A DNA stretch of 64,000 bases from a virus. The notes beneath the pieces are model-generated. The model was not told where the DNA came from, did not search any database, and worked only from the letters and a program-made list of their open reading frames with translations. The stretch lies in the IMG/VR virus record IMGVR_UViG_3300049734_000491, positions 62,001 through 126,000 of that record; one strand, 5' to 3'. Made by a program: the position numbers and the translations under genes. Shown here piece after piece: positions 2,984-63,787 of this stretch. Position 1 is the stretch's first letter; every line of letters starts with the position of its first letter.

Positions 2984-5900
2984 ATGCCTGAAATCGTCGG
3001 TACCGCGTATGTGCGGATCAAGGCCATCACCGACGGGGTGGCCAAGGACATCCAGTCCGGTCTGGACAAAGGTGCTGCCGATGTCGACGGCTCGGGGGCC
3101 GGCAGGAGAGTCGGCACGACCTTCACCCAGGGTGTGGTCGACGGGATCGACAAGGGTGGGGACGACGTCGATGCCAAACTCGGGTCGCTCGGCAAGGACG
3201 CCGATGACTCAAGTGGTTTCACCTTCGCCCAGAGATGGGCATCCAAGTTCTACCTCGGGCTCGAGAAGGCGACTGACAAGAAGAAGGAAGACGGCTTCTT
3301 CAAGGGTCTGACCAAGAACCTCGACAAGCTCAACGACAAGCTGAAGGTTCCGAGAATTGCCCTCGCCGGCCTCTTCGGCGCACCGGCGATCGGTGGAGCG
3401 GTCCAGGCACTCGGGGGCTACATCGTCTCGATCGTCGGCCAACTCGGATACCTGAGCACCGCTGCGATCGGTGCAGCAGCCGGCATCACGGGAGCCTTCG
3501 GTGCCGCGGCGTTGGCCATCGGTCCGCTCATGCTGGCCTTCAAGGCTCAGACACCGGAGTTGGACGTCTTCCAGGCCAAGGCCTCGGCGATCGGTGACAT
3601 CTGGAAGGACGTGGGTGTCGCCACCCAGAAGTACCTGCTCCCTGCCCTGACCGAGGCCATGGAGTCGTCGCTCGAGTTGGTGCCGACCTTCGAGGTCTTC
3701 GGAGAGAGCATCGGCGCCGTCTCGGGGATGCTCGCCAAGTTCGCGACGGAGATGTTGACCTCGAACCAGGTCAGCGAGCTCCTGCACAACATCCTCGATG
3801 CCGCGATCCCGATCTTCGAGTCGTTGGGTCTGGCAGCGGTCGCCTTCGCCAGAGGGATGCTCGAGCTGTTCGATGCGGTGATCCCCTTGGCCTCACGGTT
3901 CGCCGGCACGATCCAGCACATGGCAGGGCAGTTCGCCCTGTTCATGACGGCGCAGAACCGCTCCGGTCAGCTGACCCAGACGCTCACCGAGTGGTACGAC
4001 CGAGCCGAGTTGGTGGGCCAGGCGTTCATCGACTTCGGCAAGATCATCTGGAACGTGTTCAAGGTCGGTGCTGACGCAGCCACGCCGTTCTTCGAGACGT
4101 TTGCTGCGTTCGCCCAGAAGTGGGCCGACTTCTCGAAGACCGAGGTCGGGCAGGCCAAGATCAAGGGGATCTTCGAGGAGGCGGTCCCCGTCGCCCAGTC
4201 GATCAATGCCCTGCTACGGGACATCATCGGCTGGATCGTCCAACCGATCGGTAAGGACAGCTCGGGGATCGTCCGGTTCTTCGACACCCTGCGGACGGTC
4301 ATGCTGCCGTCGATCCAGAAGATCGCCGAACAACTCACCGGAAACTTGTCTGGGGCCCTGGACACCTTCGTGCAGTCCATCCTGGGATTCCTGGAGGCAA
4401 CTGCCTCTTCCGGATCACTTGAGGCATTCTTCGGGGTTCTCGGTCAGGTCCTCAACGTCCTCACCGCCATCATGCAGATCCCGGGGCTGGACACCTTCGT
4501 CGGCCTCATGCTGACCCTCGGCGGGGCGTTCAAGGCCGTCCACTTCGCGGCGAAGCCGTTCATCGCGGTCATGACCGGCTTCAAGGATCTCCTCTCGAGC
4601 AGCATGGGCAAGGCAGCGTTCAAGCCGGTGATCGAGGGCTTCGAGGCGTTCATCACCAACCCGAAGGGCGGTCTGACGGCGGCCAAGGACGGACTCAGCA
4701 CGTTCATCGGGTCCATCGGCGGAGTTGGCCTCGCCATGGGCGGGATCACCATCGCGGCCGCGGTCGGGGCTGCGGCCTTCATGGCGTGGCAGACCAACGT
4801 CAAACGAGTTGAACAAGAGTCGAAGACCTTCGCCCAGACCCTCCTGAACGGCGGTGACGCCCTCGAGGAGCTCGACAAGAGCTACCGGAACATCCTCAAC
4901 ACCCGGCAGTCCTTCGACTCCTCGATGGAGAAGAGTGGGATCAGCATCGCCCGTGTCACCAACTTGGTCAACGAGAACACCGGTGACGTGGACAAGTTCC
5001 GGGCGGCATGGCACCACGCCGGAGGTGGCTTCAAGCAGTTCCGTGAGGAGGGCGGCAAGGTCCCCGCCTCGATGCAGGGCATCATCGCCCACCTCGAGAA
5101 GCTGGGCGAAGCCGGCACCATGAGCCAGGGCGAGATCAATGAGGTCATCGACGGGATGACCGATCTCGACAAGCAGGCCCAGGCAGCCCAAGCTGGGATC
5201 GCAGCCCAAGCAGATCAACTGCTCAAGGCGGGAGAGGCTGCTGGCCTCAGTGCGGATCAGATGAAGTACTTCGCCGAGGCGGCAGATACTTCTGGGACGC
5301 TCGAGGAACAGAACGAGGCGCTACAACAGGGTATCGCTCTGTATCCGGTGATCGCCGAAGAAGCCGGTGTGTCGATGCAGACCATCACCCAGGTTTCCCA
5401 AGAGGTCAACCGGCAGTTCCAGTCCATCATCGACAAGCTCGACAAGTTGGCTGGTCGACAACTCAACGCTGATCAGGCCACCAGGGACTTCGCCCAATCC
5501 CAGATCGAGTTGAGCGAGAAGTTCGCCACGACCGGCGGCGTGCTGGCCGGCCAAACCAAAGAGGCCCTCGCCAACCGGGACGCCCTTGATGGCATGATCG
5601 CATCGGGCAAGCGGGCGGCTGAGGCTCAAGCATCGGTTGACTCGACCGGACAGAGTTCGATCGCTACCTTGAAGGGTTTGCAGCAACAGATCATCCTGCT
5701 CGGACAAGCTGGTGGGTTGAGCACCGACGAGGTCAACGCCCTGCTCGATTCGTTCGGACTCTTGGACGACCAGCAGATCCAGGCCCAGGTGAGCGTTGCC
5801 ACCGACCAGGCCATCACCGACACGGAGGCTCTCAAGAAAGAGATCCGTGAGATGGACGGGGTGACCGAGCCGGTGCGGCTCCGTCTCAACGCCTTGGTCG

Positions 5901-17890: not shown

Positions 17891-18415
17891 TCACGACTGA
17901 CGCTGCCGAGCCCTCCAACGTCGACCAGCTTCTCGCTGACACGTTCGACAACGACGAAACCCTTTCGGGTCGATGTACGTGTTCGCTGTGTCGTAGGGAT
18001 GTCCGAACGGACAGCTGGTCATGTGTTCGTAGCGTCGACGTAGGTTCTCGGAGCGCGTAACCGGCTCGAGATGCTCAGGATTCACACACAGCGTGTTGAG
18101 GCAGAGGTGATCAAGGTCCAAGTCATCTGGAACCTTGGGTCCAAGCGCTTCGTAGATAAGTCGGTGTGCTCGATGAGTGCGACCCTGCCACTTGATCTGA
18201 CCGTACCCATCACTACTGACTGTTCCTTTCCACTGCCAACAACCTGAGCTAGGGACAATTTCGTAGAGACGGTGTAAACGATCTTCAAGAGTCTCGTCAC
18301 GAAATGCCCCACCAGCGTAAGGATCACCGTACCGCGACTGTCGATAGTGGTGAGGTCCGCAAAATCCATCTGCTCTGATCGGACGAGAGCAGTCTGGCAG
18401 CAAGCACTCAGACAT
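17891..18415 (-). CDS. HNH homing endonuclease
   Basis: Predicted 174-residue endonuclease. N-terminal zinc-finger block (CLLPDCSRPIRADGFC...HHYRQSRYG), HNH core LDLDHLCLNTLCVNPEHLEPVT, then a second Cys-rich part (HPYDTANTYID, CRTCQREAGRR). The ATG at 18415 is picked because the homologous proteins begin with the first Cys pair; the frame continues upstream into the methyltransferase gene. It lies 11 nt after the methyltransferase stop on the same strand. Confidence 0.85.
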   Translation of the reverse strand: MSECLLPDCSRPIRADGFCGPHHYRQSRYGDPYAGGAFRDETLEDRLHRLYEIVPSSGCWQWKGTVSSDGYGQIKWQGRTHRAHRLIYEALGPKVPDDLDLDHLCLNTLCVNPEHLEPVTRSENLRRRYEHMTSCPFGHPYDTANTYIDPKGFRRCRTCQREAGRRWRARQRQS

Positions 18416-18426
18416 CAACGTGAACT

Positions 18427-19728
18427 CTAATCGTACGGAAGCTCCAAGTGCTTCAGAATGTGGTACGCCAACCAACGTGCCACCGGTGAAGCGATCCCAT
18501 TACCAATCATCTTGTATCGTGCACTATCTGGGATTTCGTTGCCACTTGAATCCCATCTAGTATGATCATCCGGCCAGCCCTGCAGTCGCTCACACTCCCG
18601 AGGCGTGAGCCGTCGAACCCCGATCATGTCCCCAGCTACCTGTGGGACACCAGCTCCGTTGGCCACCCGTAGCGTCGGGGTGAACTTGTCCGACACCTGC
18701 TCGTCGTGCAGGTTGTTCCCGTTGAACGAGACCACCGCCGGAGCGTGGCCGTCCGCCGGCAGCGTGGGCGAAGGATCCCCGGGCTTGGGATGGGATCGGT
18801 TGGTCTTGCTGGTGATCTGGGCGGTGTCGAACGGCATCGGCTCAGCCACGACCGTGTACATCCCCTTGTCGAGGCGGGTGGGGATCCCCTTGTAGTCGCG
18901 AGCTGTCAGCGTGTTGGCCATCTCTGGGATGAAGGTCATGCGCTCGGTGTCGGGTGACCAGCCACGTCGACCGGACCCCCCGCCCAGCGTGCCGGCCACG
19001 TCGGGGATCAAGTGGTTGGCTTGGGCGGAGTTGTCATCCGCGCCGCAACCTGCTCCAACGCCGTTTGCAGTGAGGGCGGAAGCGATCGTCCCCGACTTGC
19101 TGCCCTTCGCAGGATCCCGGCGCACCCTTTCGGTGACAGGAAGTATTTGGGGTCCACCGACTCTTCCAAGATCGAAGCAAGCGACGACGAACACTCGTCG
19201 GCGCCGTTGGGGGACTCCGCAGAAACGAGCATCCAGCACTCGCCACTGGATGTCCACCGCCCCGCATTCGGCCAAGAGGTCGAGGACTTGCGCGAAGTCG
19301 TCGCCCTGAGAGCTTGAGAGGGCGCCTCCGACGTTCTCCCAGACAGCATATGAGGGGATTCGTCCAAGGTCACGGTACTCCTTGATGATCCTGATCGCCT
19401 CGAGGAACAACCCCGAGCGAGTTCCTTCCTTCATGCCAGCTCGTTGACCCGAGATCGACAGATCTTGGCACGGGCTGCCGAAGCTGATGATGTCGCAGGG
19501 CGGCAGGTCCACTGCCTTCACGTCGGAGACATCGCCCCAGCGAGGTGTGTCCGGCCAGTGCCGAGCCAGGATCTCGTTGCACCACGAGTCCCACTCGACC
19601 AGTCCCACGGTGTTGGCCCCGACTGCCTCGAAACCGAGATCCATGCCACCGACGCCGGCGAACAGGGAGAGGTGGTCGGCCCGAGGAGTGGCGATCCGTC
19701 GCTGTCGTCGGCGAGTTGGGGTAGCCAT
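18427..19728 (-). CDS. DNA (cytosine-5) methyltransferase
   Basis: Predicted 433-residue C5-cytosine methyltransferase. Motif I LSLFAGVGGMDLGFE (SAM binding), motif IV FGSPCQDLSISGQR with catalytic Cys, motif VI ENVGG, motif VIII ARFCGVPQRRRRV, a long target-recognition region with repeated ANTLTARD/SPTLPADG-like blocks, and motifs IX-X (RRLTPRECERLQGWP, IGNGIASPVARW). It methylates cytosine in a short DNA site, probably protecting phage DNA from host restriction. No cognate nuclease is adjacent. A -10-like TAAGCT ends 6 nt before ATG, suggesting leaderless expression. Confidence 0.95.
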   Translation of the reverse strand: MATPTRRRQRRIATPRADHLSLFAGVGGMDLGFEAVGANTVGLVEWDSWCNEILARHWPDTPRWGDVSDVKAVDLPPCDIISFGSPCQDLSISGQRAGMKEGTRSGLFLEAIRIIKEYRDLGRIPSYAVWENVGGALSSSQGDDFAQVLDLLAECGAVDIQWRVLDARFCGVPQRRRRVFVVACFDLGRVGGPQILPVTERVRRDPAKGSKSGTIASALTANGVGAGCGADDNSAQANHLIPDVAGTLGGGSGRRGWSPDTERMTFIPEMANTLTARDYKGIPTRLDKGMYTVVAEPMPFDTAQITSKTNRSHPKPGDPSPTLPADGHAPAVVSFNGNNLHDEQVSDKFTPTLRVANGAGVPQVAGDMIGVRRLTPRECERLQGWPDDHTRWDSSGNEIPDSARYKMIGNGIASPVARWLAYHILKHLELPYD

Positions 19729-20071: not shown

Positions 20072-20350
20072 CGCCACCGCCGGCCGTGATTCCTGTGGCT
20101 GTCGGTGGGCTTTTGTCCGACGGTGGCGTGAGATGCCCCGCACCGCCAACCGCTCCTCGAAAGGCTGTCGAGGTAACTTCAGGTTGACGGTGCGGGAACC
20201 CGATGATCGCCACTGGTCTTGGCTGTCGATGCGACATCGGATCATTGGGTCGAGGGAGGGGCGGCTGTCGGATGTCCAATGGACCCTAGAAGGTGTCACC
20301 GCTGGCCGGAGTGCTTACAGCTGTCGCGAACTCTATGGGCCAGCGGTGAC
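20072..20350. repeat. Hairpin array A: tandem structured repeats next to HhH gene
   Basis: Four long inverted repeats fill the gap after the HhH gene. Stem 1: 20072-20079/20121-20128 (8 bp). Stem 2: 20137-20151/20182-20196 (14 of 15) with a nested 6-bp stem 20155-20160/20168-20173. Stem 3: 20199-20208/20240-20249 (10 bp, one G-T). Stem 4: 20295-20307/20338-20350 (13 bp perfect), ending 5 nt from the HhH stop. Every loop carries GGCTGTCG (AGCTGTCG in the last): 20097, 20163, 20221, 20319; a further copy is at 20263. There are no T-tracts. It may be a structured RNA or a protein-bound DNA array. Confidence 0.8.
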
Positions 20351-20355
20351 GAGTA

Positions 20356-21210
20356 TTACAGACCCTCCTCTGACTTCCAGCGGGGCGGGAGGCCCGAAGC
20401 GACACGCCACAGGTCGATGCCGATCTGCTTGGCGGTGAACCGGAGGGCGGCGTTGTGCTTGTGGGCCTGCGTCCACTCCTCGCGGGCCTCGTACTTCGCC
20501 TTGGCCTGATCGTAGGCATCACGGTAGGGAGACCGACGACGGGGCGCCCGTGTTACGGCTGTCGCGGCATTCGCGGCCGCGTCGTCGGTCAGGATGACGG
20601 GATCATCGGTACCACCACCGGTCGCGCACAGCCCAGCTCCCGTAACCACATCGGACTCGGTGGTGGTACCGGCCGAGCCGATCTGCTTGACGCAGGACTC
20701 GGCGAGCAGGTGGAGCAGCATCTTCGCCACGGGGTTGCCCAGAGCGAGGGTGTCTGCCTGGTCCATCCCCTTGCGGCGCTTGGCCGCGGGGTCGCCGTGG
20801 CCGCAGTAGGCCAGCAGCTGGCGGGGCGTGCGGTCGAACGGCTCGAGCGCCACGAGGTGGCGATCCTTGCCGCAGCGGAACGAGCACTCGTGCCCCTCGG
20901 GGGACTCGTCCATCCAGATCCACGGCTCGGCGTGGATGGGATCACCGATGGCACCGAGCAGGCGAGCCACGGTGTGCTCACCCAGTCCGACGGTGTCTCG
21001 GGCCCACGCGTAGAGCTCGGGGGCGGCGACACGGAAGGTCCGCTTCATCGCCAGCGCCAGCATCTTCTCGGTGGCCTGCAGGTTGGTCACGTGCTGGGTC
21101 ATGGCCTCGGGGGCCGCTGGGATGTGGCGGAGTCTGTGCTCCGTGGCGATCCGCAGCTTCTGGGCATCGTGATAGCTCTCGGCGATCACCTTCAATTGGT
21201 CGTAGCTCAT
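20356..21210 (-). CDS. IS110-transposase C-terminus-like HhH protein, copy A
   Basis: Predicted 284-residue protein resembling only the C-terminal (Tnp_20) half of IS110/IS116 transposases. A helix-hairpin-helix (VGLGEHTVARLLGAIGDP, near residues 72-90) is followed by PRQLLAYCGHGDP, KGMDQADTLALGNPVAKMLL and a C-terminal helix (HNAALRFTAKQIGIDLWRV). The N-terminal DEDD/RuvC catalytic domain is absent, and the Ser that IS110 proteins use in this region is not evident (RRKGMD instead). So DNA or RNA binding without catalysis is likely. A linker (about 165-235) contains two hairpin repeats. Its paralogue is at 62010-62858. Confidence 0.75.
   Translation of the reverse strand: MSYDQLKVIAESYHDAQKLRIATEHRLRHIPAAPEAMTQHVTNLQATEKMLALAMKRTFRVAAPELYAWARDTVGLGEHTVARLLGAIGDPIHAEPWIWMDESPEGHECSFRCGKDRHLVALEPFDRTPRQLLAYCGHGDPAAKRRKGMDQADTLALGNPVAKMLLHLLAESCVKQIGSAGTTTESDVVTGAGLCATGGGTDDPVILTDDAAANAATAVTRAPRRRSPYRDAYDQAKAKYEAREEWTQAHKHNAALRFTAKQIGIDLWRVASGLPPRWKSEEGL
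20531..20671. repeat. Two hairpin repeats inside HhH gene A
   Basis: Within the coding sequence, arms 20531-20541/20580-20590 (11 bp perfect) enclose a 38-nt loop with GGCTGTCG at 20557, and arms 20607-20620/20658-20671 (14 bp perfect) enclose a 37-nt loop. They encode Thr/Ala/Gly/Asp-rich linker residues of about 180-227 and appear to be members of the adjacent array that lie in frame. Confidence 0.75.
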
Positions 21211-21222
21211 TGTCTTGTCCTT

Positions 21223-21249
21223 TGGTCGTTGTCGTTGTCGTTGGTCAGT
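21223..21249 (-). repeat. 27-nt leader repeat, copy before HhH gene A
   Basis: On the minus strand this 27-nt block of ACGACA/ACGACC units lies in the 34-nt gap between the helical partner gene (whose TGA it includes) and the HhH start. An identical block occurs at 49870-49896 before the 411-residue gene. It is A/C-rich and unlikely to fold, so it could be an open ribosome-loading leader. Confidence 0.7.
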
Positions 21250-21739
21250 TGTCGAGGTCAGCGAGACAGGTCACGCCGGCCGCGATGATGGTCTGTGCAG
21301 CCTCCTCGTGGGCGAGGCGGGTGTCACGGATGGAGTTCTCTTGGGTGAGCAGCCAGCCCGCACGGGCGAGATGGTCGTCGGCGGTTGCCTTCAACCATTC
21401 AACCCATCGTCCATCGGGCAGGATGAACGACTGCTCCATGAGCAGCCGACGGGCGGTAGTGGGGTCGGCTCCGGCCGCGATGTCGGTCCGGACTCGGATC
21501 TCGGTCCGACGAACCTCGGCCCGCTGAATGCGGGACACCTCGTAGCGCACGAGCTGGAGCAGCCAGCGCCGTCGCTCGGACTCGGTGAGCGCAGCGATGG
21601 CTGCCTCGGCGATGTCCTGCTGATCTTCGAGACCCGAAGCGATCGCAGCCTTGATGTGGGCGTAGAGCGACGTGGGTGTCGTGACAGCCGACGGGAGGGT
21701 AGTGGTTGTCGGTGTTGTTGGTGGTGCTTGGAACGTCAT
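21245..21739 (-). CDS. Helical partner protein of HhH module, copy A
   Basis: Predicted 164-residue, mostly helical protein encoded just before HhH gene A. After a Thr/Pro-rich N-terminus it has AEAAIAALTESERRRWLLQLVRYEVSRI and then DGRWVEWLKATADDHLARAGWL and IIAAGVTCLADL. The same two blocks recur in order in the protein at 62855-63553 (AERAIKAMTTAEYEKYVLASL; GTDYVDWLEATIEQHAGRIAW; LIEAGVPNLAAL), so the two are paralogues. A TTGTCA-N19-TATAGT promoter lies directly upstream, with the ATG 7 nt after the -10. Confidence 0.75.
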   Translation of the reverse strand: MTFQAPPTTPTTTTLPSAVTTPTSLYAHIKAAIASGLEDQQDIAEAAIAALTESERRRWLLQLVRYEVSRIQRAEVRRTEIRVRTDIAAGADPTTARRLLMEQSFILPDGRWVEWLKATADDHLARAGWLLTQENSIRDTRLAHEEAAQTIIAAGVTCLADLDN

Positions 21740-24551: not shown

Positions 24552-24823
24552 AGTCCGTGACGTGGCTCAGCCTCGTGGCGTTCTTCGTCGTCGTGCTGGT
24601 GGTGTCGACGATGTCCACGGTCTCGGTTGACGAACTCCGAGATCGGCTCGGCCCGATGGCCGACTGTCTGGCCGAGAAGAGATGCGAGATCGTGCCGGTC
24701 ACCGCTCCCGCCATAGAGCAGCCAACCGCCTGCCCACTGGGATCGACACTGACCCCGTTCTCGGTTTATCAACGCCAGCCGGTCGAGGCCGACCGAACGA
24801 TCCTGGTCTGCGTTCCGGACTAG
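24548..24823 (+). CDS. Membrane-anchored small protein with extracytoplasmic part
   Basis: Predicted 91-residue protein from GTG in a GTGA overlap. An N-terminal hydrophobic segment (SLVAFFVVVLVVSTM) is followed by about 70 polar residues with four Cys (CLAEKRC, TACPLG, LVCVPD), probably outside the membrane. It could be a lysis accessory similar in layout to spanin-type proteins. It meets the leftward gene with a 4-nt overlap. Confidence 0.6.
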   Translation: MKSVTWLSLVAFFVVVLVVSTMSTVSVDELRDRLGPMADCLAEKRCEIVPVTAPAIEQPTACPLGSTLTPFSVYQRQPVEADRTILVCVPD

Positions 24824-25761
24824 AGCTCAACTCCCGCACGACGGAGTTGGGCCCGCAGGTTCTTGATCGACCGGTGGTCCGAAGGCGTGCTCGGTCCGAT
24901 CAACGTCCTCGTGCCGTTCCCGTTCTGAGGGATCATCTTGACGTGTCCACCGCCGGAGCGCTCCAGCGTGTAGCCCTGCGCCGCCACGGTGCCGTACAGG
25001 TTCCGCAGGTCCTTGTCGGTGACCGACGAGGGGACCGCTGAGAGCCTCGGCTTGACCGTCTTGTCCTTCTTCTCGGTTCCGTCCGAGTCCCCGTCCATCT
25101 CGGGCAGGAGATCCATGACGATGGGGTCGTCGTCAGTGGTCTCCTGCAGCAGGCTCTCGATCCGGTCGATCTTCTCGGTCATCTCCAGCCACGCTGCGAA
25201 GGTCTCCGAGACGAAGTTCTGGAGCTGGTCGGTCATCTGCCGGTAGCCCTCGATCAGGACTGCGATCTGGCTGGGCTCGAGCGCAGCCGGCGGAGGAAGC
25301 TCGCTGAGGTCAGCCAGGATTTGAGCGGCTCGGCTGGCTGGCAGTTCCACGCTCACCCTGACCAACGGCTCATTGCTCAGATCGACGGGCTTGATGTCCG
25401 GGACCGACGGGAGTTCGGCAGCCGAAGGAATCTCAGCCACCTTTTCAGGTTCCGTTGACACTTCTGGCTCCAACGCTCCTTGAACCTCGTGGGGAGATCC
25501 AAGCTCTTCTCGGGTCGCAGGAGCCAAGTCGATCCTGGTCGAGATTCGGGATGACTTGCGCTCCACCACGACCCGACCACTCTTCTCGAGGTTCTTGACG
25601 TGGAAGAACCACGAGGCGTTGGAGACCTTGTACTCGGGATGCTCGTCCAGCATCTGCTGGGAGATCTCCCACGCCTTCTTGATGGCGTTGGCTCTGGTTG
25701 GTCGATGGTCCTTGATGGGTCCGTGTTCCCGTAGGAAGTCGATGAGTGTGTCTTGATTCAT
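24820..25761 (-). CDS. wHTH-like protein fused to HicA-like C-terminal domain
   Basis: Predicted 313-residue protein. Residues 1-75 look like a winged-helix DNA-binding domain (SQQMLDEHPEYKVSNASWFFHVKNLEKSGRVV in pieces). The middle is Pro/Glu-rich with a coiled coil. The last 65 residues (LRNLYGTVAAQGYTLERSGGGHVKM, then TPSDHRSIKNLRAQLRRAG) match the HicA-like double-stranded-RNA-binding fold common in actinophages, with the conserved GGGH His. HicA toxins cut mRNA; phage copies are often stand-alone with unknown roles. No HicB antitoxin gene is adjacent. Confidence 0.75.
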   Translation of the reverse strand: MNQDTLIDFLREHGPIKDHRPTRANAIKKAWEISQQMLDEHPEYKVSNASWFFHVKNLEKSGRVVVERKSSRISTRIDLAPATREELGSPHEVQGALEPEVSTEPEKVAEIPSAAELPSVPDIKPVDLSNEPLVRVSVELPASRAAQILADLSELPPPAALEPSQIAVLIEGYRQMTDQLQNFVSETFAAWLEMTEKIDRIESLLQETTDDDPIVMDLLPEMDGDSDGTEKKDKTVKPRLSAVPSSVTDKDLRNLYGTVAAQGYTLERSGGGHVKMIPQNGNGTRTLIGPSTPSDHRSIKNLRAQLRRAGVEL

Positions 25762-60455: not shown

Positions 60456-61595
60456 TCAGGCCGGTGCTGGAACCGACGTCTCGGCGTACCGCTGGTGGCG
60501 CTGGCCCGAGATGTAGTTCGGTGAGGTCGAGATCATGGCGATGGCCACGTCCGGTCCGTCGTCGGTGACGTCGCACGGTGTGCGGAAATCGCACCAGCCG
60601 CAGGCATCGCTGGGGGACGGGAAGGCGTACCGCTCGGCCAGGTGCACCGTGGAGGGCTGGGCGGTCAGGGGCGTGACGTCGGCGGACGGGGGCGTGACCG
60701 GATCGAGCTGCAACGTGGCGTCGATGAGCTCGGCCACCACCGAGAAGATCTGCCGTCGGCGGCTGCGGCGCAGCGCCTGGGAGTGCGTGATCGGCAGGTC
60801 CCTCACCTCGGTGGGGGCATTTCTGGAGCGGGGTCGCTGGATGATCCGGTAGTTGAACTCGGCTGGGGGAGAGTTGGTTGAGATTGCCCGGGCCCGTGCC
60901 TCTTGGAGCGGAGCCGGTAGATCCTGAGCCATCTCCAGAAGCATGTCGTAGAAATACGACTGATTGGATCGCTGGAACCCCTCGTCCACCTGGAAGGTCC
61001 GGCCCGTCGTCTTCCAGTCCGTCATCCGGATCTGGGCGTAGCGGGGATCACTGGGATCGGGCGAGGTGTGCTGCTGAACCAGGTCGACCTTGCCCTGCAA
61101 CCGGATCGCTGTGAAGCCCTGCTGCCGGAGTTGGGACGTCCGCTGGGCCACGGCGTGGGGGGAGTCGAGTTGTTCCCAGACGGGATCATCGAACTCGAGG
61201 GTGTACCGCAACTTGGCTTCGGTGCAGACAGGATCCCACTGGGCGTCGGGTTGGTTCTCCTCCAGCCAGGTCACGTAGTCAGCCACCATCCGCCGACCGA
61301 GCAGCACATCCTCGTAGAGCTTGTCGCACACCCAGGGTGGCTGGCCGGTGCTCGAGGCCCGGGCGATGTCACGCTGGGCAAGCTCCTCGAAAAGCTGTCT
61401 GGGGTCTCTCGGGCCGGCTGGGTCGTAGTGACCCTCGAGCGCCTCGTGCACCCGGACACCGGCTGGGGCTGCTCCGACCGGGAACCGTGCATCGCTGAAC
61501 CCGAGCACGTAGTTGAACCAGAACTGTCTCCTGCACTGCAGGAAGCTGGCGATATCGGAATGGCTGATGTCAAAAGAACGGCCTGTACGAGTCAT
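60456..61595 (-). CDS. Cas4/RecB-like Fe-S exonuclease
   Basis: Predicted 379-residue PD-(D/E)XK nuclease. First Cys in DIASFLQCRRQFWFNY, then GKVDLV, IRMTDWKTTGR (D-x-K) and QSYFYDMLL form the core; CGWCDFRTPC near residue 333 supplies three Cys. Four Cys in this order are the iron-sulfur ligands of the Cas4/AddB group. Phage versions process DNA ends in recombination. It is next to hairpin array B and module B, on the same strand downstream. Confidence 0.9.
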   Translation of the reverse strand: MTRTGRSFDISHSDIASFLQCRRQFWFNYVLGFSDARFPVGAAPAGVRVHEALEGHYDPAGPRDPRQLFEELAQRDIARASSTGQPPWVCDKLYEDVLLGRRMVADYVTWLEENQPDAQWDPVCTEAKLRYTLEFDDPVWEQLDSPHAVAQRTSQLRQQGFTAIRLQGKVDLVQQHTSPDPSDPRYAQIRMTDWKTTGRTFQVDEGFQRSNQSYFYDMLLEMAQDLPAPLQEARARAISTNSPPAEFNYRIIQRPRSRNAPTEVRDLPITHSQALRRSRRRQIFSVVAELIDATLQLDPVTPPSADVTPLTAQPSTVHLAERYAFPSPSDACGWCDFRTPCDVTDDGPDVAIAMISTSPNYISGQRHQRYAETSVPAPA

Positions 61596-61827: not shown

Positions 61828-62002
61828 GTCCCCAGCGGCGGTCATCAAGGGGGTATCGCATCTTCTAAGGCCGCTGGGGACCGAGGATGCCATCGACGGC
61901 GACTCTGGTTTGGGCATCGCTACTTCTACGACCGTCGATGGCGAAGGTGTCCCCGACGGCGGGGTATCGGTGGGTATCGCATGTGCTCCGACCGTCGGGG
62001 AC
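61828..62002. repeat. Hairpin array B: three perfect long hairpins
   Basis: Stem 1: 61828-61839/61870-61881 (12 bp). Stem 2: 61889-61899/61932-61942 (11 bp). Stem 3: 61949-61959/61992-62002 (11 bp). All are perfect, with 30-32 nt loops. The loops contain GGGTATCG at 61851, GGGCATCG at 61912, and GGGTATCG at 61962 and 61972, a form of the GGCTGTCG of array A. Stem 3 ends 7 nt from the HhH stop, as stem 4 of array A ends 5 nt from its stop. There are no T-tracts. Confidence 0.85.
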
Positions 62003-62009
62003 AGACCAG

Positions 62010-62858
62010 TCACGCAAGCGTCGTCAGGTAGAGGTTATAGAGCCGACGAAGGAACTCCTTCGAGGTCCGCCGGATGGCGGCGTTGTCAGCGTGTCCCTTC
62101 GTCCAGCCGCGCTCTGAGTACATGAGCTTGGAGAGGTCGAGGTAGCAGCGGAGACAGAGGTCGTCCCGGACAGCGTCGCTACTGTGGGTGTCGGTCATAC
62201 CATGACCGCCCGGGACGACGAAGGTGCCATCGACGGCGGGGCATCGGTGGGTGTCGTATGTGCTCTGGCCGTCAGGGAGATCGAGGACGCAGCCCGGAGT
62301 GTGCTCACCGGCCTTCCTGATCTGTGTCGTGTTCAAGTAGAGCAATGACTTGATGCGGACGTTGCCGGACGCCATCGCCTCGGACTGTGTCATGCCCTTG
62401 GTGCGGCGGCGGGTCGGGTCGCCCAGAGCGCAGTAGGACCAGAGCTGGGAAACGGATCGGATCTGCGGCTCACCCTGCACCAACACCCGTTCGTCCGTGC
62501 TCCCCGCCTCGGATCCGGGAATCCACCACTTCGGGATGGCGACCACCGGATGTCCGATCGCTCCGAGGATCCGTGCGACGGTGTGCTCGCCGACACCGCG
62601 CTGTGCCGCGACCCACTCCCGCACCGGTTCGGGAACGACATCACGGTAGGTCCTCTTCAGGGCCTTGCTGGCGGCCTTCTCGATCTCAGTCAACAGATGG
62701 ATCTGATCGTCGAAGAGACCAGCAGGAGCGTGTCTCAAACGATTACCGGTAGCGATCCTCATCAGCTGCATATCAGTGAACTGATCGGCGGCGAGACGCA
62801 GGAGCCGGTACTGATCATCAAGGGCGTCGATGGCATCGACATCCTTGAGGTCGATCAC
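62010..62858 (-). CDS. IS110-transposase C-terminus-like HhH protein, copy B
   Basis: Predicted 282-residue paralogue of the 20356-21210 protein, from GTG in a GTGA overlap with its partner. HhH VGEHTVARILGAIGHP, then SYCALGDPTRRRTKGMTQSEAMASGN, a linker, and the C-terminal RGWTKGHADNAAIRRTSKEFLRRLY. No DEDD domain and no IS110-type Ser. N-terminal blocks (MQLMRIATGNRLRHAPAG) match copy A (KLRIATEHRLRHIPAA). The linker (about 195-233) is encoded by hairpin repeats. Confidence 0.75.
   Translation of the reverse strand: MIDLKDVDAIDALDDQYRLLRLAADQFTDMQLMRIATGNRLRHAPAGLFDDQIHLLTEIEKAASKALKRTYRDVVPEPVREWVAAQRGVGEHTVARILGAIGHPVVAIPKWWIPGSEAGSTDERVLVQGEPQIRSVSQLWSYCALGDPTRRRTKGMTQSEAMASGNVRIKSLLYLNTTQIRKAGEHTPGCVLDLPDGQSTYDTHRCPAVDGTFVVPGGHGMTDTHSSDAVRDDLCLRCYLDLSKLMYSERGWTKGHADNAAIRRTSKEFLRRLYNLYLTTLA
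62160..62273. repeat. Two hairpin repeats inside HhH gene B
   Basis: Arms 62160-62169/62210-62219 (10 bp perfect) hold a loop with GGGTGTCG at 62186. The next, 62232-62237/62268-62273 (6 bp), holds GGGCATCG and GGGTGTCG at 62239 and 62249. The 34 nt from 62232 match those from 61955 in the array at 31 positions; all three changes are transitions. Confidence 0.8.
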
Positions 62859-63553
62859 GCCAGCTCCTTCGGCGGGACAACCGTCAGGAGTGATGCATCG
62901 GTCGACGGTGGCTCGGGACGCTTGGCCTCGGGCAATGCAGCGAGGTTGGGCACGCCGGCCTCAATGAGAGCATCGATCGCGTTCTGGTGCCGCTGGCAGT
63001 CGGTCTGGAGCGGTTCAATGTACCGCCGGTTGATCCAAGCGATCCGACCAGCGTGCTGTTCGATGGTCGCCTCAAGCCAGTCGACGTAGTCGGTGCCGTC
63101 GAAGAACTTGTACCCACCGAGTTGGTCCTTGGCGAGACGCGACCACGTCCGATGAACCGGTTCGGTCTCAGCCACCTCGACCTCCTCGGTGGGGATGTGT
63201 TCCGATTCACCGTTCTCTGCGGACTCACCCTCCTCAGTGGCAGGTGGGGGAGTGGTAACGGGGACGGTGGGGGTGTACGGATCGCCCACAGCATTCTCGG
63301 CATCACGGGTCAGAGCCCGCTGCCACGTCTTGGCCTCCTTGATGAGCGAGGCGAGGACATACTTCTCGTACTCCGCTGTGGTCATCGCCTTGATCGCCCG
63401 CTCAGCCAGCTTCTCCGGATCGGTGGTGTGGGGCTCGTCCCGATGTGGAACCGCCGAGGCGAAGATCTCAACCAGTGGTCGGATCTTCGGAGTGGATGAC
63501 GACGAGGTCGTCGAAGTGGGCGTGGTCATCATCGTCACGTCGACGAGTTCCAT
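62855..63553 (-). CDS. Helical partner protein of HhH module, copy B
   Basis: Predicted 232-residue paralogue of the 21245-21739 protein. ATG 63553 has AGGGAG upstream; a longer frame would translate the leader repeat. Ser/Thr-rich start, helical block AERAIKAMTTAEYEKYVLASL, an acidic Pro/Glu insert (about 95-130) absent from copy A, then YVDWLEATIEQHAGRIAW and DALIEAGVPNLAAL. Coupled to the HhH gene by a 4-nt overlap, so the two are made together. Confidence 0.75.
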   Translation of the reverse strand: MELVDVTMMTTPTSTTSSSSTPKIRPLVEIFASAVPHRDEPHTTDPEKLAERAIKAMTTAEYEKYVLASLIKEAKTWQRALTRDAENAVGDPYTPTVPVTTPPPATEEGESAENGESEHIPTEEVEVAETEPVHRTWSRLAKDQLGGYKFFDGTDYVDWLEATIEQHAGRIAWINRRYIEPLQTDCQRHQNAIDALIEAGVPNLAALPEAKRPEPPSTDASLLTVVPPKELA

Positions 63554-63565
63554 GAGATCTCCCTG

Positions 63566-63595
63566 TTGGTCTTGGTCTTGGTCTTGGTCTTGATC
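63566..63595 (-). repeat. Tandem GACCAA leader repeat
   Basis: On the minus strand one GATCAA followed by four exact GACCAA units, just before the AGGGAG site of the module B operon. It resembles the ACGACA leader of copy A in place and base composition. Confidence 0.7.
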
Positions 63596-63787
63596 ATCGG
63601 CAGTTGGCCACATGAAGCAGGGAGACCAGTAGGTCATCTCTCACACCGACTGCCGCCTCGGGTTCAAGTAGGCGTTGGAGTATACGAGTTGTAGTGCATG
63701 ATTGCAAATCGGCGCTGGCGGTCACCACTATGCATAAGTAGACCGCAGCCAAGTTGAGGAATCGGGTCGCTCGGGGAAATTTTTCAG

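Follow-up and report, generated by a model that had tools for sequence, protein, structure and literature searches.

Putative TIGR-TasA guide loci of the stem-loop type in a viral genome and their relatives in actinophages

Introduction

What does a transposase-like protein do in a virus when its gene stands between a second small gene and a row of long hairpins? The question is raised by a locus that we call module A (20072-21739, minus strand), which consists of a gene encoding 164 residues, a gene encoding 284 residues, and a hairpin array. It lies in a stretch of 64,000 nucleotides (nt) with a guanine and cytosine (GC) content of 62.7%, the window, which corresponds to bases 62001-126000 of the virus record IMGVR_UViG_3300049734_000491 (127,992 bases in total). 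Positions are those of the window unless stated otherwise. The initial annotation of module A had proposed a non-cutting, RNA- or hairpin-binding relative of the C-terminal part of IS110 transposases. We find that module A and a second locus with the same architecture, module B (61828-63637), are almost certainly guide loci of TIGR-TasA systems of the stem-loop type.

Faure et al. 2025 (PMC12045711) described TIGR systems with dual-repeat arrays, as well as clades with tandem stem-loop arrays. In the latter, boxes C and D frame the two spacers of each unit (8-12 nt each), the palindromic stems vary, the linkers are variable or conserved, and the arrays are processed to single hairpins in a TasA pull-down (Fig. 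7 of that work). The authors state as open what the systems target in nature, what role nuclease-less TasA has, and where spacers originate, questions that persist in part since most systems are known only from metagenomes.

Results

The 284-residue protein has no match in Pfam and matches a PHROG family labelled "transposase". However, the NCBIfam profile NF052498 ("TIGR-Tas system RNA-guided endonuclease", a name ill-suited to members that lack a nuclease domain) matches it with E 2.2e-26 and 93.1 bits, for a cutoff of 100, and scores 232 bits against the homologue in Mycobacterium phage Pari. A profile built from 49 members of the family matches PDB 9MTY, whose accession is confirmed as the TasR of Faure et al. 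2025 (PMC12045711), with E 6.5e-30, and TasH with E 3.2e-18. When the AlphaFold model of the protein (pLDDT 85) was compared with known structures, Foldseek ranked TasR (9mty, E 4.6e-07) and TasH above IS621 and ISCro4, all with probability 1.00. Domain searches revealed neither HNH nor RuvC, the whole length being a coiled-coil/Nop region, and the N-terminal DEDD/RuvC-like catalytic domain of IS110 is absent, as the protein starts in the coiled coil. The match to NF052498, the profile matches to TasR and TasH, and their place at the top of the structural ranking place the protein in the Tas family, with the nuclease-less TasA proteins. The initial annotation had seen in it only the RNA-binding (Tnp_20) half of IS110, without the DEDD nuclease. 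Both observations hold, and the structural similarity on which they depended is present in the matches to IS621 and ISCro4.

As originally read, the array starts 5 nt beyond the stop codon (20356), with the first hairpin arm at 20350. The 326 nt that lie 3' of the gene fold with -146.1 kcal/mol, against -116.3 ± 6.0 for shuffled sequences (z = -4.9). Folding is good on the opposite strand too (z = -3.85); since palindromes fold on either strand, it is the shared motifs, and not folding alone, that give the strand. We derived the structure of the units from an alignment by eye, followed by a pattern search. From one stem arm to the other, a unit has CC (or CT, AC, TC), about 10 nt, CG, a linker of 4 nt, CC or CT, about 10 nt, and CG. 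In module A the loops follow CC-N10-CG-ACAG-CC-N10-CG, a motif absent from the initial annotation, with ACAG as the typical linker, and linkers are ATAC, ATGC, or ACAC in module B. The string CGACAGC flanked by a stem of 12-16 nt occurs nowhere else within the window, and the full motif (stem score of at least 7) is found on average 0.8 times in 64 kb of first-order Markov sequence. Stems have 11-15 base pairs (bp) and differ in sequence in most units, i.e., they are variable palindromes without edge repeats.

Module A has 5 units after the gene and 2 within the tasA frame, and module B has 3 and 2 (Table 1). The "four to five" long hairpins first reported are thus a real array of five, four of them long and one with a stem of 4 bp. 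The single promoter claimed for the module was not recovered by a sigma-70 scan, a model that says little for this organism, and a scan of the window with Rfam gave no match. The genome has 27 units in total. Those outside the two modules are in an orphan array and a lone unit, both with mostly ACAG-type linkers. The orphan array lies outside the window and has no adjoining tas gene; it has 14 units (genome positions 3259-3965) followed by a hairpin (3986-4025), and adjacent units often have a common stem sequence. The lone unit (genome positions 126882-126913, minus strand; stem of about 20 pairs with mismatches allowed) is found about 2 kb from the upstream end of module B, close to the end of the record.

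Table 1. Genes and guide units of modules A and B in the window
Feature	Position	Strand	Spacers A / B	Remarks
Partner gene, module A, 164 residues	21245..21739	-		All-helical core; PHROG 4604-like; profile E 1.3e-21 after iteration; AlphaFold pLDDT 89
tasA, module A, 284 residues	20356..21210	-		Nop/IS110-C-terminal-like predicted RNA-binding protein without nuclease domain (NF052498, 9MTY profile, Foldseek)
Unit A_orf2, within tasA frame	20607..20671	-	GATGTGGTTA / GGGCTGTGCG	Linker GGAG; codes for low-confidence insert of the protein model
Unit A_orf1, within tasA frame	20531..20590	-	GCGAATGCCG / GTAACACGGG	
Unit A1	20295..20350	-	ATAGAGTTCG / GTAAGCACTC	
Unit A2	20247..20286	-	ATTGGACATC / GCCCCTCCCT	Stem of only 4 bp, weakest unit; stem bases common to A3
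Unit A3	20197..20251	-	GATGTCGCAT / AAGACCAGTGG	
Unit A4	20136..20197	-	GAAGTTACCT / TTTCGAGGAG	
Unit A5	20072..20128	-	AAAAGCCCAC / ACAGGAATCA	
Partner gene, module B, 260 residues	62855..63637	-		4-nt overlap with tasA of module B; related to module A partner (E 7.4e-07)
tasA, module B, 282 residues	62010..62858	-		37% identical to module A protein; NF052498 E 3.6e-21
Unit B_orf2, within tasA frame	62231..62274	-	AGAGCACATA / ACCGATGCCC	
Unit B_orf1, within tasA frame	62160..62219	-	ATGGTATGAC / ACAGTAGCGA	
Unit B1	61948..62003	-	GGAGCACATG / ACCGATACCC	Begins 6 nt past tasA stop
Unit B2	61889..61942	-	GTAGAAGTAG / AAACCAGAGT	
Unit B3	61828..61881	-	TTAGAAGATG / CCTTGATGAC	

Scans of viral contigs with the window proteins alone gave no relatives, whereas an alignment that included phage homologues found them. 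A tas homologue is present in at least 74 records of Mycobacterium phages (first query), annotated as transposase, helix-turn-helix protein, or hypothetical protein; that of Pari lies at 2992-3702 of the analysed stretch. Further relatives occur in phages of Gordonia and Rhodococcus, in IMG/VR, and in bacterial genomes. We counted units in 50 non-redundant loci, mostly of actinophages, an earlier count over 79 loci having been inflated by duplicate IMG/VR contigs. With the thresholds used, on which the counts depend, there are 315 units in the sense orientation, 15 in antisense, and 8 in Markov sequence. At least three units were found in 44 of the 50 loci and in none of the antisense or Markov controls. 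A consistent lack of hairpins in related loci, which would have spoken against the original proposal, is thus not seen.

A hairpin search independent of the motif gave a concordant picture: 50 of 53 loci have perfect-stem hairpins near tas, 293 in total. The loop is exactly 30 nt long in 192 of these hairpins and reads CA-N9-CG-NNNC-CCA-N9-C (CA at positions 1-2, CG at 12-13, CCA at 18-20, C at 30), with a nearly flat base composition across both 9-nt spacer stretches. The boxes, CC..CG..CC..CG in the window and CCA..CG..CCA..CG in relatives, are thus found also without the motif. We write the spacers of the window as 10 nt because box C there has no fixed A at its third base, and the total geometry is unchanged. 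For 13 mycobacteriophages we read the flanks, and in these about five guide hairpins form an array directly upstream of tas.

Some units lie inside the tas reading frame. Those of module A coincide with a disordered insert of the protein (residues 181-225, pLDDT around 50). When codons were shuffled synonymously, no trial yielded two units for module A, and 2 of 2000 did for module B. At least one unit within the conserved coding part of tas was found in 24 of 48 related loci, and across relatives 42 units are inside tas, 225 upstream, and 34 downstream. In relatives, the in-frame units are concentrated near the N-terminus and in the region that corresponds to this insert. The main text of Faure et al. 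(PMC12045711) places arrays upstream, downstream, and between genes, and does not mention any inside tas.

The 164-residue protein has an all-helical core in its AlphaFold model, in agreement with the helical protein initially predicted upstream of the 284-residue one. A profile grown from the genes upstream of tas in Pari, Morrissey, Peregrin, and five IMG/VR loci has a member directly upstream of tas and on the same strand in 82 of 82 loci, a set that includes duplicates; the distance to tas is given for the first 65 or so of these loci. The partners in Pari, Morrissey, and Peregrin are PHROG 4604. Those of the window are not significant in the first pass (3.6 and 1.8 for modules A and B) and join the profile only after iteration (1.3e-21 and 3.6e-21), the module A partner entering in the second pass (6.8e-05). 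For the 164-residue protein there is independent support from structure: among viral proteins, Foldseek matches its model best to one from Mycobacterium phage Omega (E 2.4e-04), which is uncharacterised. We found no convincing relative of the partner in the PDB and no match in PADLOC. According to the main text of Faure et al. (PMC12045711), TasA lacks clear associations, except for a ParB-like gene in dual-repeat loci; we found no support for the partner being ParB-like. Among the relatives that have tas and no unit detectable by the pattern (L068, L069, L074, and L077), the first two carry the partner gene and L074 is a truncated fragment. These relatives may use a different motif or be guide-less.

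Spacers could be compared among the 13 mycobacteriophages, which are closely related, the phage of the window being without close relatives. Their mean pairwise difference is 2.8% in tas, 12% in stems, 5-6% in box C, and 58-59% in spacers. The first box D differs by 37%, a figure inflated because spacers of unequal length misalign. Read unit by unit, each position has 1-4 stem variants and 7-9 spacer pairs. At position 4, three different spacers B occur with one and the same spacer A (TATCTCCGG), and therefore the two can change independently. In these comparisons of sequence, the spacers evolve as guides would.

We searched for DNA targets under a model in which a site is spacer A, 0-2 nt, and the reverse complement of spacer B. 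The 128-kb genome itself has no site with two mismatches or fewer for any of the 27 units. In the DNA of the analysed loci, 307 spacer pairs have 62 such sites, against 49 and 58 for mispaired spacers, which is therefore chance level. Twelve spacer pairs, searched at gap 0, gave no target in 50,697 phage records, in a method whose control detected an exact 18-nt match and for which a smaller query of four pairs was near the detection limit. Exact scans of IMG/VR with four pairs gave 3, 2, 1, and 0 matches, again at chance level, in contigs of 34-66% GC; the single matching contig that was inspected is an unrelated low-GC phage.

Discussion

The proposal of a non-cutting, hairpin-binding relative of the IS110 C-terminus fits the fold common to TasR, TasH, and IS110, the absence of a nuclease, the strand-specific box C/D hairpins, and their pairing with the gene in 44 of 50 loci. 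The accompanying statement that no system with this layout had been described was wrong, as the stem-loop TIGR-TasA was published in 2025 (PMC12045711, Fig. 7). The locus shown there, from a Peromyscus gut contig, has in common with ours a nuclease-less Nop-domain protein adjoining tandem hairpins, each with two short C/D-framed spacers, variable palindromic stems, and no edge repeats. Ours differ from it by their actinophage clade, by an upstream partner in every examined locus, and by guide units in the tas frame. The core layout is therefore known, while the partner gene, the guides inside tas, and the fast-changing guides of mycobacteriophages go beyond the main text of that work (PMC12045711) and look new; its supplementary table S1 may list such phages.

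The dual-repeat TIGR-TasR and TasH systems share the Nop domain, the CCA of box C, tandem spacers, and a match at the level of family sequence and fold. In contrast, the loci studied here lack RuvC or HNH, have stems in place of edge repeats, and have CG rather than UG in box D. With the bridge-RNA recombinases IS110/IS621 they share the C-terminal Tnp_20/Nop-like RNA-binding fold and a guide RNA adjoining the gene, but they lack the N-terminal DEDD domain, have numerous individual hairpins in place of one two-loop bridge RNA, and we noticed no element ends. Small nucleolar ribonucleoproteins of the box C/D class (Nop5, Nop56/58) are established users of guides framed by boxes C and D, a logic found again here. 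However, we saw no kink-turn and no L7Ae partner, and the expected target is DNA, not rRNA.

By analogy with TasR and TasH, the array transcript would be cut into single hairpins, each bound by a TasA dimer through its two C/D boxes. Of the two spacers, each would pair with a different strand of a single adjacent DNA site, about 18-20 bp long, and TasA would open and bend this site without cutting. The orphan array, which has the ACAG linker of module A, would be served in trans. As a whole, we consider the explanation by stem-loop TIGR-TasA loci highly probable. With lower certainty, the partner may be a second obligatory component, and the bound complex may keep a competitor (another phage, a prophage, or a plasmid) from being transcribed or replicated.

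The hairpins could instead be control elements of DNA or RNA (operators, attenuators, or terminators) with guide-free loops, bound by a Tnp_20-like protein that regulates its own operon. Their position directly after the stop codon, their GC-rich stems, and the good folding of transcripts from both strands are compatible with this. Yet the boxes are strand-specific (315 sense units for 15 antisense), the most variable parts are spacers of flat composition and fixed length, which is the opposite of a site recognised by a protein, and units are found on either side of tas and within it, as well as in a 14-unit array elsewhere in the genome, all of which makes control elements very improbable. 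We give even less credit to a decayed IS110/IS1111 transposon, in which a transposase fragment would be left with remnants of bridge RNA or with REP-like target hairpins. Fold and sequence are nearer to TasR and TasH than to IS110, and the solo protein forms an intact family of dozens of members with partner gene and array, even if the RNA-binding fold is the same, one relative has a sub-threshold Tnp_20 match, and homologues are annotated as transposases.

TIGR-TasA guides might also be aimed at the genome of the phage itself or at its integration, for instance as a programmable repressor or as a DNA-bending aid to the integrase. A bend-based role of TasA in integration was proposed by Faure et al. 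(PMC12045711), and the locus stands beside repressor and recombination genes in some phages. We nevertheless find such a role unlikely: none of the 27 units has an own site within two mismatches, and the different spacers of phages that are otherwise almost identical speak against a conserved own target. The role that we favour, tentatively, is non-cutting interference with competitor DNA. It is the best-supported guess because spacers avoid the own genome and diverge fast, and because the locus of the mycobacteriophages Pari and Marsha is close to the immunity repressor (in Marsha also near an Imm-like superinfection immunity gene); it stays a guess because searches of several collections gave no target. 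It is conceivable, with similar reserve, that actinophages have a two-protein, nuclease-free, RNA-guided interference system, in which TasA and an obligatory PHROG 4604 protein use guides encoded partly in the effector gene, whose spacers A and B are replaced in place and independently within conserved stems, in an arms race against mobile elements.

Several points weigh against the explanation by TIGR-TasA guide loci. The proteins of modules A and B score just under the curated NCBIfam cutoff (93 and 76 bits for 100), 4 of the 50 relatives are without any unit, and no DNA target rose above chance in the own genome, the locus DNA, the 50,697 phage records, or the four IMG/VR scans.

At least 74 of the sequenced phages that infect Mycobacterium smegmatis, a laboratory host amenable to genetics, have the tas homologue. 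The 13 arrays read differ mainly in their spacers and form natural allele series in which targets can be sought and spacer replacement can be followed. Finally, a misleading annotation as transposase is corrected, and the hypothetical family PHROG 4604 gains a context.

Other genes in the window

Module B is followed by a gene for a PD-(D/E)XK (RecB/Cas4-like) exonuclease (60456-61595), and the same family follows tas in Pari. Among ten other loci examined, three have PD-(D/E)XK nuclease or RecT genes near tas, so that such an exonuclease is not a general neighbour of tas. Where present, it may have to do with the turnover of spacers, or simply indicate a recombination region. Downstream of module A and on the same strand are genes for an HNH endonuclease (17891-18475) and a cytosine-C5 DNA methyltransferase (18427-19728). 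At 24820-25761, a protein of 313 residues matches PHROG 2089, a family of unknown function, with its 67 C-terminal residues; by eye it resembles a HicA-type domain.
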